This document shows, piece by piece, positions 21,325 to 26,323 of a stretch of DNA of 32,330 nucleotides. The DNA lies in the NCBI GenBank assembly GCA_905339355.1, contig CAJPFZ010000268.1, positions 1 through 32,330 of the forward strand, in the 5' to 3' direction. Within the stretch, counting starts at the first letter, position 1. Every line of letters begins with the position of its first letter. A model generated the notes under the pieces. That model searched no databases. It worked only from the letters and a program-made list of their open reading frames with translations, and was not told where the DNA came from. Origin of the DNA: Burkholderiaceae bacterium. GTDB lineage: Bacteria; Pseudomonadota; Gammaproteobacteria; Burkholderiales; Burkholderiaceae_C. The translations under genes and the position numbers were made by a program.

Positions 21325-21966
21325 TCAGCCGCCCTTGCGCACGCGCTGGATCAGATGGTCGGCCACCGCCAGCGACGCATCGGGGCTGCCGGCGAGCGTG
21401 CCCGACGTATAGAACTTCCCGTGCACGCCGATCGCCGGCACGCCGTCGATCTTGTAGTCGGCGGCCGCCTTGGAGGCCTGGCGCACCTTGGTCTGCACGC
21501 TGAACGAGTTGTACTGGTCCAGGAACTTGGCGCTGTCGACGCCGTTCTTCTGCATGAAGGCGGCAATGTCGGCGGGCTTGTCGAGCCGCTGGCGCTCGCT
21601 GTGGATGGCGTAGAACACCTTGCGGTGCATCGTCGGGATGAGACCCATGGCCTCCAGCGCGTAGTAGATCTTCTGGTGCGCGACGAAGGGTTCCTCGCGG
21701 AAGGCGACCGGCACGCGGCGGAAAGCGACGTCGGCGGGCAGCTTCTTGGACCAGGCGTCGAGCGCCGGCTCGAAAACATTGCAGTGCGGGCAGCCGTACC
21801 AGAAGAACTCGATCACCTCGATCTTGCCCGCGGCGACCGGCACCGGCTGGCTCAGCTTGACGTAGTGCGTGCCTTCGACCGGCGCACCTTGCGCCACGGC
21901 GGTAGTCAGGCCGGTGGCGGCCAATCCGGCGACGGCCAGCTGGGCGGAGAACTCTCGACGATTCAT
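21325..21966 (-). CDS. dsbA: Thiol:disulfide interchange protein DsbA
   Basis: DsbA is the periplasmic oxidase that introduces disulfide bonds and is reoxidised by DsbB. The 213-residue mature-plus-signal protein has the active-site CPHC (Cys59 and Cys62) in FFWYGCPHCNVF, and the cis-proline motif GVPAIGV later in the thioredoxin fold. The helical insert (FREEPFVAHQKIYYALEAMG) is typical. The signal peptide starts MNRREFSAQLAVAGLAATG; the RREF pair resembles a twin-arginine motif, unlike the Sec/SRP signal of E. coli DsbA. ATG 21966 was chosen over one at 21981 because AAGGA lies 7 nt upstream. It follows the SPOR gene by 57 nt and ends at a clear terminator. Confidence 0.95.
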   Translation of the reverse strand: MNRREFSAQLAVAGLAATGLTTAVAQGAPVEGTHYVKLSQPVPVAAGKIEVIEFFWYGCPHCNVFEPALDAWSKKLPADVAFRRVPVAFREEPFVAHQKIYYALEAMGLIPTMHRKVFYAIHSERQRLDKPADIAAFMQKNGVDSAKFLDQYNSFSVQTKVRQASKAAADYKIDGVPAIGVHGKFYTSGTLAGSPDASLAVADHLIQRVRKGG

Positions 21967-21993
21967 TCCTTGTTCCTTCAAAGGCAGCGATCC

Positions 21994-22023: not shown

Positions 22024-22686
22024 TCAACGTTGCACACGCACCAGCGAAGATTCCATGCCGGAGGCTTCCAGCCTGTCCTTGGTGACGTCGGCATCGTCCC
22101 TGCTCTCGAAGGGGCCGACACGCACCCGGTACACCGTGCGGCCGGCCTGCTCGCGCTCGGTGACCTTGGCGCCCATGCCGAGCATCGCGATCTTGGCACG
22201 CTGTGCCTCGGCGTCCTCGGGACGCGCGAACGCACCGACCTGCACGAAGTAACTGAACGGATCGGCGCCGGGTTTGGTGGACGCGCGCGGCGCGGCCGCC
22301 GTCTGCGTGGCGGGCGGTTTGTCGCCGAGGATCTCCGCCGGGTCGCGCCGGGCGGCCGCCGGAGCCGATGCGGTGGGCGCCGCGGCGACCGGTGGTGCGG
22401 CGGGTGGCGCCACCGGGACCGTCGCTGGCGGCAACGGCCCGGTCGCGGTGGCCGGCGGGCTCGTGCTCGGGCGCGCCGGCGACTTGCCGTGCAAAGGGCC
22501 GTTCGGGTCCCAGTTCTTGTTCTTCTCGGCTTCGGCCGCGTCCTGCTCGGCGGTTCGCTGCGGAACCTTGTTCACGAACGGCACCGGCACCTTCGTGACG
22601 TACAGCGCCACGCCGAGCGCCACCGCGAGCCCGACCATCAGGCCGACGATCAGCCCCATCGCGAAGCCACCACGTTGATATTTCAT
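22024..22686 (-). CDS. SPOR-domain membrane protein (FtsN-like layout)
   Basis: This 220-residue protein has a short cytoplasmic N-terminus (MKYQRGGF), one membrane helix (about 9-30, GLIVGLMVGLAVALGVALYV) and a periplasmic region rich in Pro, Ala and Thr. A C-terminal SPOR domain follows (about 145-220, YFVQVGAFARPEDAEAQ, YRVRVGPFESRDDADVTKD). SPOR domains bind denuded peptidoglycan glycan strands at the division septum, and the layout is that of FtsN. Being between argS and dsbA is a common betaproteobacterial order. ATG 22686 fits because GGGGGA lies a few bases upstream; a longer reading from 22743 would add a Cys/Arg-rich lead. A role in cell division is inferred, not proven. Confidence 0.88.
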   Translation of the reverse strand: MKYQRGGFAMGLIVGLMVGLAVALGVALYVTKVPVPFVNKVPQRTAEQDAAEAEKNKNWDPNGPLHGKSPARPSTSPPATATGPLPPATVPVAPPAAPPVAAAPTASAPAAARRDPAEILGDKPPATQTAAAPRASTKPGADPFSYFVQVGAFARPEDAEAQRAKIAMLGMGAKVTEREQAGRTVYRVRVGPFESRDDADVTKDRLEASGMESSLVRVQR

Positions 22687-22699
22687 TCGTCCCCCGGGA

Positions 22700-24385
22700 T
22701 CACATCTTGTCGGGCGCGCCGACACCCAGCACGCCCAACGCATTTTTCAGCACTTGCCGGGTTGCACTCAACAGCGCCATGCGCGCGCGTGTCAGCTCGG
22801 CATCGTCGACCAGGAACCGCACCTGGTCGTAGCAGGCGTGGTAGTCGCTCGCCAGCTCGCGTGTGTAGAAGGCCACGTCGTGCGGCGCCAGCCCGTTGGC
22901 GGCGCCCGCCAGCACGTCGGGATAGGCGGCCAGACGCAGCATCAACGCGAGCTCGGCCGGCTCCACCAGCAGATCGAGCCTGGCCGCGGCGAGGGTGCCC
23001 AGGTCGCCGCCGCGTTCGGCCGTCCAGGCACGCAGCACCGAGCAGATGCGTGCGTGGGCGTACTGGACGTAGAAGACCGGGTTGGTGTTGGCCTGCTCCA
23101 GCGCGAGATCGACGTCGAACACGAACTCGGTGTCCGCCTTGCGGCTGTTGAGGAAGAAGCGCACCGCGTCCTTGCTGGTCCAGTCGATCAGGTCGCGCAG
23201 GGTGACGTAGCTGCCGGCGCGCTTGGAGATCTTCACCTCCTCGCCGCCCTTCATCACCGTGACCATCTTGTGCAGCAGGTAATCGGGGTATCCCTCGGGA
23301 ATGCCCACGCCCGCGGCCTGCAGGCCGGCCCGCACGCGGGCCATGGTGCCGTGGTGGTCGGTGCCCTGGACGTTGATCGCCCGGGTGAAGCCGCGCTCGA
23401 ACTTGTTGATGTGGTAGGCGACGTCGGGCACGAAGTAGGTGTACGTGCCGTCCGACTTCTTCATTACGCGATCCTTGTCGTCGCCGAAGTCGGTCGTGCG
23501 CAGCCACAGCGCACCGTCGAGTTCATAGGTCTTGCCGGCGGCGATCAGCCGCGCCACCGTGTCGTCGACCCGGTGGGTGGTGTACAGGCTCGACTCGAGA
23601 AAGTAGTTGTCGAAGCGCAGTCCGAAGGCCTGCAGGTCGAGGTCCTGCTCGTGGCGCAGGTAGGCCACCGCGAACTCGCGGATGCCGTCGATGTCCTGCG
23701 GATCGCCCGAGGCGGTGAACTCGCGGTCGTCGGCCTTGACGGTCTTCTTCGCCATGAAGTCGTCGGCCACGTCCTGGATGTAGTCGCCGGCATAGGCGGC
23801 CTCGGGCCACCCGGCGTCGCCGGGCTTGAAGCCGCGGATGCGCGCCTGCACCGAGGCGGCCAGCGTCGCGATCTGCACGCCCGCGTCGTTGTAGTAGAAC
23901 TCGCGCGTCACCTGGTAGCCCTGGCTCTCGAACAGGCGGCACACCGCATCGCCCAGCGCCGCCTGGCGCGCGTGGCCCAGGTGCAAGGGCCCGGTGGGGT
24001 TGGCCGACACGAACTCCACCAGCACGCGGTAAGTCTTTGGCGGCTGCGCGCCGAAGCGCTCGCCGGCCTGCAGCACCTCGGCGACGACCGCCTGCTTGGC
24101 AGCGGCCGACAGGCGCAGGTTGATGAAGCCGGGGCCGGCGATCTCCATCGCGGCCACATGGCGCCGGGCGGCGTCCTGCCGGCCGAGCGCCTCGACCAGC
24201 GCCTGGGCCACCTCGCGCGGATTCTTCCTGAGCGGCTTGGCGAGCTGCATGGCCGCCGTCACGGCCAGGTCGCCGTGCGCCGCCTGTTTTGGGGATTCGA
24301 ACGCGGCCGCCAGGGTCGCGCCGGGGCTGACCTCCTGGATGGCCGCCTTCAGGGCGTCCAGCAGCGCCTGTTTCGCTTCAATCAT
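22700..24385 (-). CDS. argS: Arginine--tRNA ligase ArgS
   Basis: Class I aminoacyl-tRNA synthetase that charges tRNA-Arg. The 561-residue protein (E. coli 577) has the N-terminal additional domain (about 1-110), the HIGH-type motif in [19 protein letters not shown], the arginine-pocket segment [11 protein letters not shown], the KMSKS-like loop [11 protein letters not shown], and an anticodon-binding C-terminal domain ([15 protein letters not shown] to GVGAPDKM). ATG 24385 was chosen because family members begin near MIEAKQ-LL and a longer reading from 24658 adds unrelated text. TAGAAT ends 8 nt before it. It is the first gene of a minus-strand cluster with the SPOR protein (13 nt) and dsbA. 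It is divergent from the protein kinase gene. Confidence 0.97.
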
Positions 24386-24393
24386 GGGAGCCG

Positions 24394-24399
24394 ATTCTA
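24394..24399 (-). promoter_or_regulatory. Possible -10 of argS (leaderless spacing)
   Basis: TAGAAT on the minus strand, 8 nt before the argS ATG. No convincing -35. argS has no good ribosome site, which fits a leaderless or near-leaderless message. Confidence 0.35.
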
Positions 24400-24521
24400 A
24401 GGTTGCCCCTCCTTGCGCCGCGGCAGATACAAGGCGTTGCGACGACCGTGCCGAACAAGGGCAGGATTGCCGCGTCTTTGTGCCCTTTATCGGCCGGCAC
24501 ACTGATGCAGGCGGAGAGAAG

Positions 24522-25910
24522 ATGGCATTCCGGCCGAGTGAGGCCACCCCGTTCATGTCCAAAGACACCCGCCCCGCCGACCTGGCCCTCGAGATATCGG
24601 AATTGCCCGTGCAGATTGGCAAGTACCGCGTGCTGCGCAAGCTGGGCGAAGGCGCCACCAGCGAAGTCTTTCTCTGTCACGACGACTTTCATGACCGCGA
24701 CGTCGCGGTCAAGCGGGTGCGCGTCCTGTCTGGCGACCCGGTGGACGGCCGCTACAGCGAGCGCTTCTTCAACGCCGAGGCGGCGCTGGTGGGACGCCTG
24801 CAACACCCCAACGTCGTGCAGATCCTCGATGCGGTGGTCGACCCCGAGGGGGCTTACCTGGTCATGGAGTACGTGAGCGGCAGCACGCTGCGGCCGTATT
24901 GCCGGGCCGACCAGCTGCTGTCGCTCGAGCTGATCGTCGAGATCGGCTTCAAGTGCGCAATGGCGCTCGGCTACGTCTACCGCCAGGGCCTGATCCACCG
25001 CGACGTGAAGCCCGCCAACCTGCTGGTGGTGCTCAACAACGGCGCGATCACCGACGTGAAGATCACCGACTTCGGCAGCGTGCTGAACCTCGATTCGGAC
25101 GTGACCCAGGTCTACCGCGTCGGCTCGCTCGCCTACATGTCGCCCGAGCAGCTCGACGGCGGCACGCTCGACTGCCGCGCCGACATGTACTCGCTGGGCG
25201 CGGTGCTGTACCACCTGATCGCCGGGCGGCCGCCGTTCGACGCGCAGGTGCAGTCGGCGATGATGAACCAGATCTACAACCAGCAGCCGGCCTCGCTGAC
25301 CGGCCTGCGCTCGGGGCTCGCGGAGGCGGTGGACCAGGTGATCCAGCGCGCGCTCGCCAAGAACCCGACGATGCGCTACACGAACTGGGAGGAGTTCGCC
25401 CAGGCGCTGTCCTCGCTGATCGTCAACCACGACGTGCCGCGCGGGCAGATCCAGGGCGTGCTCGACTCCGAACGCTTCAACCTGCTGCGCAGCCTCGACT
25501 TCTTCACGAGCTTCGGCGACGTCGAGCTGTGGGAGGTCGTGCACCGCGCCAAGTGGCAGCGCTTCAGCTTCGGCCACGCGCTGTACCGCAAGGGCGAAGA
25601 GGGCAACAGCTTCCACATCATTGCGCAAGGCGAGGTGGAGGTGTTCCGCGACGGCATCAAGGTCGCGCAGCTGGGCGCCGGCACGTCGGTGGGCGAGATG
25701 GCCTACCTCGCCCCGAGCCCGGAGCTCAGGCGCCACAGCACCGACGTGATCGTCACCGAATCGGCGACCACGATCTCCTTCACGCCGGAGACGCTGGCGC
25801 AGGTCAGCCCGAGCTGCCGCCACCACTTCGACGAAGCCTTCATCCGCGTGCTGGTGCGCCGGCTGCATTCGGCGCACGAGGCGCTCGCGCATCCGCGGCG
25901 CATTCTCTGA
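24522..25910 (+). CDS. Ser/Thr protein kinase fused to a cyclic-nucleotide-binding domain
   Basis: This 462-residue cytoplasmic protein starts with a Hanks-type kinase domain (about 32-300). It shows the Gly loop [11 protein letters not shown], the ATP-anchoring Lys64 (VAVKRV), [10 protein letters not shown] with catalytic Asp161, the DFGS motif with Asp183, and [10 protein letters not shown] linker (about 300-325) leads to a CNB domain (about 326-445). It has [20 protein letters not shown] and [17 protein letters not shown], a phosphate-binding cassette with the Glu and a candidate Arg, though the canonical PRxAT motif is altered to RRHST. No transmembrane helix is present, so this is not the usual PASTA kinase. 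Kinase before CNB is the reverse of eukaryotic PKG. The start has GGAGAG 5 nt upstream. Regulation by cAMP, cGMP or another nucleotide is inferred. Confidence 0.9.
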
Positions 25911-26014: not shown

Positions 26015-26323
26015 ATGAAACGCCTGATGACCGCGCTCGCCTTCAGCCTGGCCGTGTTCGCGACGGGTTCGCAAGCCGCCTCCCCCGCCGCAGCCGCTTC
26101 CGCGGCAAGCGCGCCGGCAATGTCCAAGCAGAACACCAAGATGGCCGACTGCAACAAGGACGCCGCTGGCATGAAGGGCGACGAGCGCAAGGCCTTCATG
26201 AAGACCTGCCTGACCGACAAGAAGAAGGCGCAGAACGAAAAGATGAAGACCTGCAACGCCGACGCGCGCGACATGAAGGGCGACGCGCGCAAGGCGTTCA
26301 TAAAGGAGTGCCTGAGCAAGTAG
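26015..26323 (+). CDS. psiF: PsiF-repeat secreted small protein
   Basis: This 102-residue protein has a signal peptide ([20 protein letters not shown], then Ala) followed by an Ala/Ser spacer. Two copies of the PsiF repeat follow: [25 protein letters not shown] and [25 protein letters not shown]. Each repeat has two Cys residues spaced alike, and the pair is very basic. E. coli PsiF is a phosphate-starvation-inducible protein of unknown function with the same two-repeat layout, so homology is clear but phosphate control here is not shown; no Pho box was seen. The start is preceded by GGAG, 5 nt before the ATG. It stands 104 nt after the kinase gene, a gap containing only a weak CCTTGC/GCAAGG hairpin. 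Confidence 0.88.

Follow-up and report, generated by a model that had tools for sequence, protein, structure and literature searches.

The stretch of 32,330 nucleotides analysed here (the window), from a Burkholderiaceae genome, encodes a Ser/Thr protein kinase with a C-terminal cyclic-nucleotide-binding (CNB) domain. In the phosphate-binding cassette of this domain a histidine, His405, stands where the canonical Arg would align. The exchange is shared by nearly a whole clade of relatives. Among its 119 aligned rows the residue is His in 117, Tyr in one (L141) and Arg in one (the sister sequence L135), whereas all 39 distant kinase-CNB fusions that we read carry Arg. The contact between this Arg and the phosphate has been treated as a hallmark of cyclic nucleotide binding, and the clade discards it while keeping the rest of the pocket.

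The preliminary description of this DNA had presented the architecture as exceptional, and in this respect our results are more sober. The His cassette is the actual finding and the architecture itself is not new, because matches to it are widespread in the order and the class and because a 2007 survey of CNB domains already names kinases among the domains attached to its 'Other_bacterial' CNBs (PMC2246266). The CNB domain has furthermore been described as common to eukaryotic kinases and Planctomycetota Ser/Thr kinases (PMC11032199). The terms 'cyclic nucleotide' and 'cNMP' are absent from the accessible main text, supplements aside, of two surveys of prokaryotic Ser/Thr kinase architecture (PMC1262709, PMC2877116). 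Our literature search, with subscription papers mostly outside its scope, returned no study of this particular protein and none that describes a bacterial kinase with a His cassette.

Architecture, distribution and genomic setting

Both Pfam domains of the 462-residue protein exceed their own cut-offs: Pkinase with an E-value of 8.9e-49 (166.7 bits) and cNMP_binding with 2.5e-10 (40.6 bits against a cut-off of 27.5). Several points noted earlier from the letters of the sequence were borne out. The Hanks core is intact, with Lys64, Asp161 and Asp183 invariant in 119/119 clade rows, and the kinase (residues 35-292) precedes the CNB domain (346-427), an order opposite to that of PKG, in which the CNB domains lie N-terminal to the kinase. 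The protein also looks cytosolic, as no membrane helix was found by Kyte-Doolittle hydropathy; the highest mean over 19 residues is 1.61, starting at residue 132 and thus within the kinase domain. Table 1 gives the positions of the features.

Table 1. Features of the kinase-CNB gene and its neighbours in the window
Feature	Position	Strand	Basis
DsbA-like protein	21325..21981	-	Pfam DSBA; neighbour in 67/80 and 36/38 loci
SPOR-domain protein	22024..22686	-	Pfam SPOR (E 2.9e-18); neighbour in 73/80 and 37/38 loci
argS (arginyl-tRNA synthetase)	22700..24385	-	Pfam Arg_tRNA_synt_N, tRNA-synt_1d, DALR_1
Kinase-CNB gene (Ser/Thr protein kinase of 462 aa, CNB domain C-terminal)	24522..25910	+	ORF; Pfam Pkinase and cNMP_binding; orthologues
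Hanks-type kinase domain, residues 35-292	24624..25397	+	Pfam, conservation, PknB fold match
Residues 299-342, conserved linker plus the N-terminal CNB helices	25416..25547	+	alignments; model helices 317-324 and 333-342
CNB beta-roll, residues 346-427	25557..25802	+	Pfam, fold matches
Gly391-Glu392 of the phosphate-binding cassette	25692..25697	+	invariant in 158/158 kinase-CNB rows
His405, column of the canonical cassette Arg	25734..25736	+	gapless comparison, profile alignment
Long C-terminal helix, residues 430-456	25809..25889	+	model, conservation

The kinase appears to be catalytically intact and of the PknB type. Glu86, the HRD motif, Asn166, Asp221, Arg285 and the activation-loop Thr195 are invariant in 119/119 clade rows, as are the DFG motif and the first two glycines of the Gly-rich loop, Gly42 and Gly44; the third loop Gly is replaced by Ser (112 rows) or Ala (7 rows). 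The full-length model matched PknB (5u94) with a Z score of 28.7 and an rmsd of 2.2 over 251 residues at 36% identity, and PknB and StkP are also the nearest solved kinases by sequence (E 1.2e-42). The protein does not belong to the PASTA kinases with a transmembrane helix and extracellular repeats: against the NCBIfam Stk1/PknB model it scores 230.5 bits, over the kinase part only, where the cut-off is 450, and Pfam finds no PASTA repeat in the 462 residues. Among the 39 distant kinase-CNB rows, 15 have Ser in place of the DFG Gly (among L103-L111 and L123-L127).

The fold search with the full model returned kinases alone, and the CNB part was therefore folded separately. Its best match was PycTIR with cUMP (8jsk; Z 16.0, rmsd 3.5 over 144 residues), followed among others by CRP of Mycobacterium tuberculosis (4a2u; Z 15.2, rmsd 2.4 over 143 residues); the matches that come next include PKA, PKG and HCN domains. 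Together with the Pfam score, the beta-roll with flanking helices places this part in the CNB superfamily. Both AlphaFold models are of moderate confidence (mean pLDDT 77.8 and 75.4), with values of only 68-69 around residues 390-400 and 83 at 401-410, and the side-chain positions in the pocket discussed below come from alignment and not from coordinates. Alignments indicate that residues 299-342 are largely common to the distant kinase-CNB fusions. The helix at 430-456 is a possible dimerisation or docking helix in the model.

In one genome collection, 516 of the 542 candidate stretches encode a relative of the protein by tblastn; orthology in this set was examined for the 80 loci that we kept. 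These are 73-91% identical to the window protein and come from named Burkholderiales (Rhizobacter, Piscinibacter, Aquabacterium, Methylibium, Ideonella, Leptothrix, Schlegelella and others), the rest being metagenome bins labelled Proteobacteria, Pseudomonadota or Betaproteobacteria. The gene argS lies divergently upstream of the kinase gene in 78/80 of these loci and in 38/38 further orthologue loci. The open reading frame is not a chance reading, because of these two observations.

A profile built from the linker plus the CNB part (A2) matched, at E 1e-15, 76 of the 200 genomes searched in the window's family, 69 of them strongly (E < 1e-68), and at the same threshold 38 of 229 genomes of the class. 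The suggestion that the same architecture be sought across Burkholderiales was fruitful, as 75 of 250 genomes of the order match at E 1e-20. Some of the order and class matches lie in short, unread open frames (146-337 aa), so that not every match need be a fusion. In the loci L092-L131, all 51 ORFs read have a kinase HRD motif upstream of the CNB part. Our distant rows are fetched loci, that is the best-scoring matches and chosen regions, and not all matches of the order and class; they share 32-45% identity with the window protein (median 39, n=39), and the clade rows 59-93% (median 77). Where several rows had the same last 100 residues, one was retained. Over the last 300 residues the 119 clade rows hold 115 different sequences, and a few species are counted twice because they occur in two collections (for example L166 and L070, or L167 and L058, each pair being identical). 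In several stretches distant kinase-CNB genes are paired within a few kb (L114, L119, L122 to L127). In the window's own genome the kinase-CNB protein is the only full-length match, and 11 other matches cover parts of the kinase domain. The same genome has 18 CNB matches, including the kinase-CNB protein, 6 PP2C matches and 2 class III cyclase matches, so components of such signalling are present.

The wider neighbourhood of the clade is stable. Besides the genes in Table 1, the 80 kept loci have lptB (63 loci), lptA (62) and a downstream LysR gene on the strand opposite to the kinase (59), counts that are depressed by short contigs. In two of the kept loci argS was not found: in L040 the contig ends 75 bases from the kinase, and in L069 3.8 kb upstream are covered; dsbA is absent from L155 and L163 among the 38 further loci. 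Around the distant fusions no stretch had an argS match (0/22), and seven neighbour proteins that we scanned there gave EAL, DUF1302, L-PSP and one weak SpoIIIAH match, three being without a match, with no common theme. We also considered reading the function from the neighbours, but argS, SPOR, dsbA, lptA and lptB are housekeeping genes that point to no clear pathway. A promoter scan of positions 24300-24600 found none, as in shuffled sequences. Just downstream of the kinase gene, at 26015-26323 on the forward strand, the window encodes a small protein with two PsiF repeats, and a match lies near the kinase on the same strand in 24 of the 80 kept loci.

The phosphate-binding cassette

The Gly-Glu pair that the preliminary description saw in the cassette is indeed kept in every clade and distant row. 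Met393 is likewise invariant in all 158, and Tyr395 and Pro398 are so in all 119 clade rows. Position 394 is Ala in 110 clade rows, with Val in 6 and Ser, Cys and Met in one each. Position 403 is basic (Arg or Lys) in 117 of the 119. The same description proposed a candidate Arg for the cassette. Arginines do exist at 403 and 404, but neither stands in the column of the cassette Arg, which corresponds to Arg209 of PKA.

Three checks agree in placing His405, and not Arg404, in this column. The sister sequence L135 reads LRTADV at the cassette at equal length to the clade, so that His405 and its Arg pair without a gap. A profile-profile alignment (hhalign) of A2 with a profile of 36 distant sequences also pairs His405 with Arg. 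Finally, the Asp-Val that follows His-Ser-Thr in the clade also follows Arg-Ser-Thr in L096 and L102. The distant fusions have canonical cassettes of the form GEM...KRTATI, RSASI, RTATA or RSADV. The idea of a moved cassette Arg was rejected for both neighbours. Position 404 is variable among the 119 rows, its five commonest residues being Arg (80), Lys (13), Leu (9), Thr (8) and Gln (4), with 5 rows beyond these; and L135 has a basic residue at 403 in addition to the Arg in the 405 column.

Other residues around the pocket are conserved to different degrees. His341 is His in 112 and His365 in 116 of the 119 clade rows. We considered His365 as a pocket residue and set it aside; it is a marker of the clade and, judging from strand parity, probably faces outwards. 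Gly361 holds the position of Gly169 in the beta2-beta3 loop of PKA, a residue described as co-conserved with the cassette Arg (PMC2246266), and is kept in 117/119 clade rows. It lends weak support to a working pocket, because the distant rows, which all bear the Arg, have Gly here in only 22/39; in the kinase-CNB group this Gly is not tightly tied to the Arg.

The cassette is thus unusual, as had been suspected, and with the Arg replaced and the Gly-Glu pair kept an unusual ligand specificity is possible. The earlier proposal of a directly nucleotide-gated kinase fares less evenly. The loss of the Arg across orthologues, which that description had itself named as a refutation, speaks against its simple cyclic-nucleotide form. 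Gating by some ligand may still hold, because the Arg did not decay but gave way to a fixed His while the rest of the pocket stayed conserved.

To trace the evolution of the change we built a tree without the cassette columns from 105 of the 158 rows, taking one in three of the first 80 loci and all later ones. The clade lies on one side of a branch with a support of 100, and L135 is sister to the rest of the clade, which has a support of 96. These values come from a short search with SH-aLRT support only, in which several distant rows are long-branched and for which the program issued a warning about long branches that meet. The residue at 405 needs at least two changes on this tree, and the plain reading would be one change from Arg to His after the split of L135, then one from His to Tyr. 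L135 (Arg) and L141 (Tyr) are natural cassette exceptions of the clade and of comparative use.

Histidine in other CNB proteins of the family

A second protein of the same genome has His at the position of the cassette Arg. This Crp-type regulator (CNB domain and Crp helix-turn-helix; L191:2344-3009, forward strand, G000:C577:9343-10008) is flanked, according to Pfam, by ftsK and by a gene for a pyridine-nucleotide oxidoreductase, and its cassette, GEMSLIDNEPHSATV (PHSAT), is otherwise canonical. We read 50 of the 67 matches in the window's family together with L194 (51 matches: His in 50, Arg in one) and four from separately queried genomes (all His), which gives His in 54 of 55; the sole Arg is in a protein of 44% identity. 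Among 17 matches from the order outside the family the residue is Arg 15 times and Ser twice. Judging from the sequences, the same exchange of Arg for His has been made in one bacterial family by two CNB proteins that are unrelated to each other. The two sites do not change together, because G373, with Arg in the kinase, and G300, with Tyr, keep the His in the regulator.

The two proteins also co-occur. In 80 genomes the regulator is found in 28/28 with a kinase of the clade and in 35/52 without (Fisher 0.0003, counted by hand); of five kinase-clade genomes queried separately, G332 (86% complete) gave no regulator match. The association is weak evidence because of shared ancestry. Three further CNB domains of the window's genome (L178, L183 and L186), FNR-like by eye, have His in the Arg column without the Glu, and for this reason the His alone is no proof of a ligand.

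Two other proteins of this genome touch on cyclic nucleotides. One is a class III nucleotide cyclase fused to an FHA domain (L090:1483-2424, forward strand, G000:C216), a fusion that possibly links Ser/Thr phosphorylation to cyclic nucleotide synthesis. The other (L192:3143-5176, reverse strand, G000:C326) has a CNB domain with the canonical PRSAT fused to a part that by eye resembles a patatin-type lipase; its gene adjoins a long ORF holding a class III cyclase match.

Readings of the altered pocket and known systems

The explanation that we prefer, and whose prospects as a whole we consider evenly balanced, is a soluble PknB-type Ser/Thr kinase whose activity would be controlled in cis by its C-terminal CNB module. 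PknB-type kinases activate one another as dimers. Through its N-terminal helices and its long C-terminal helix, the CNB module could set the kinase arrangement or dimerisation. A small ligand in the His-type pocket would then shift these helices, and the resulting change in how the kinase domains are arranged or paired would raise or lower trans-phosphorylation. The ligand would not be held by the canonical Arg-phosphate contact and may be some other metabolite or messenger, or else a cyclic nucleotide whose binding is weak or depends on pH. The protein probably responds to something other than cAMP, or binds cAMP differently. A point against this explanation is that the basic position 403 could partly take over phosphate binding.

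Two alternatives keep more of the ordinary behaviour of CNB domains. The kinase could be gated in the usual sense by cAMP or cGMP, with Glu392, the backbone, His405 and the basic 403 holding the nucleotide, a reading that we regard as unlikely. The conserved Glu392, Ala394 and Gly361 would fit it, as would the two cyclase matches of the genome, one of them with the FHA domain, but the clade has lost the Arg in 118/119 rows where the distant fusions all keep it. Selectivity for cGMP through a PKG-type Arg was rejected, as position 382, the counterpart of the guanine-binding Arg of PKG, is Ala in 81/81. In PKA itself, an exchange of the cassette Arg for Lys lowers the affinity for cAMP nearly ten-fold and not to nothing (PMC2246266), which would leave room for binding without it. 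The CNB part could also be a ligand-free scaffold that merely dimerises or docks the kinase, like CRP/FNR proteins that have no effector in this pocket; this we likewise hold to be improbable, if a little less so. Non-allosteric members of the family bind no ligand (PMC12937710), and the FNR-like domains of the same genome show that His can stand in this column. Those domains are, however, without the Glu, whereas the clade keeps Gly391, Glu392, Met393, Tyr395 and Pro398 without exception, which seems to go beyond the needs of a scaffold.

Other CNB proteins that lack the Arg suggest two more specific readings, both of which we consider very improbable. His405 could be an axial ligand in a heme or metal sensor of the CooA style. 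In CooA the His that binds heme sits at a place analogous in structure to that of the PKA cassette Arg (PMC2246266), and His341 and His365 are mostly His too. Against this, His365 probably faces away from the pocket, and heme binding in CooA needs the absence of the region of CRP residues 72-82 (PMC12937710), which is present here with its Gly-Glu. The kinase could instead sense nucleosides, as does the PKA of trypanosomatids. The cassette Arg, which in PKA neutralises the phosphate, is replaced there too, and its loss goes with nucleoside binding and with a Glu at the position of Ala202 that contacts the ribose hydroxyls (PMC10959531); at the corresponding position 394 no clade row has Glu. 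Because neither the CooA-type absence nor the trypanosome Glu applies and Gly361 is kept, we favour a pocket that would be working but altered over a dead one.

A broader idea, speculative and in our view rather unlikely, is that His-cassette CNBs in one large Burkholderiales family are receptors for a molecule other than cAMP and cGMP, or for a pH or phosphate-state signal, and that the kinase and the Crp-type regulator evolved the swap independently to read it. If this were true, the kinase would serve as the phosphorylation branch in such a His-cassette pathway. A clade with a fixed chromosomal place and a His cassette makes directly testable what a CNB domain with Glu and His binds. This matters for annotation, as at the family level (Pfam cNMP_binding) these proteins would be called cyclic-nucleotide-binding. 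If the kinase is gated, it would offer a small one-chain system in which to study how an intracellular messenger controls bacterial Ser/Thr kinases.

Among known systems, kinases of the PknB/StkP type resemble the window's kinase domain in sequence and fold; the window protein differs from them by having no membrane-like stretch, no PASTA match and a CNB domain instead. The kinase-CNB fusions with a canonical cassette (e.g. L092-L127) share its domain order and have a similar linker and CNB helices, but they keep the Arg, occur several per genome or in tandem in some genomes, have no argS match in the 22 stretches fetched and have Ser-Pro where the clade has Ser202-Leu203. CooA, FNR-like and PDZ-GEF CNBs have non-canonical cassettes as in the window, with His (CooA) or Met/His (PDZ-GEF) at the Arg position. 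The PDZ-GEF and FixK/CooA consensus sequences are without the Gly-Glu that is invariant in the clade, while the FnR consensus has it (PMC2246266). The trypanosomatid PKA regulatory subunit is, like the window protein, a kinase-controlling CNB protein that has lost the Arg (PMC10959531); there the change is accompanied by the Glu at the Ala202 position, and in the clade the substitution is His and this Glu is absent. PKG and the PKA regulatory subunits finally tie CNB domains to the control of a kinase, and in a profile search of the PDB the CNB part matches cGMP-dependent protein kinases best (E 3.8e-26), but the window protein differs from them by its reversed order, its single CNB domain and the replacement of its cassette Arg.
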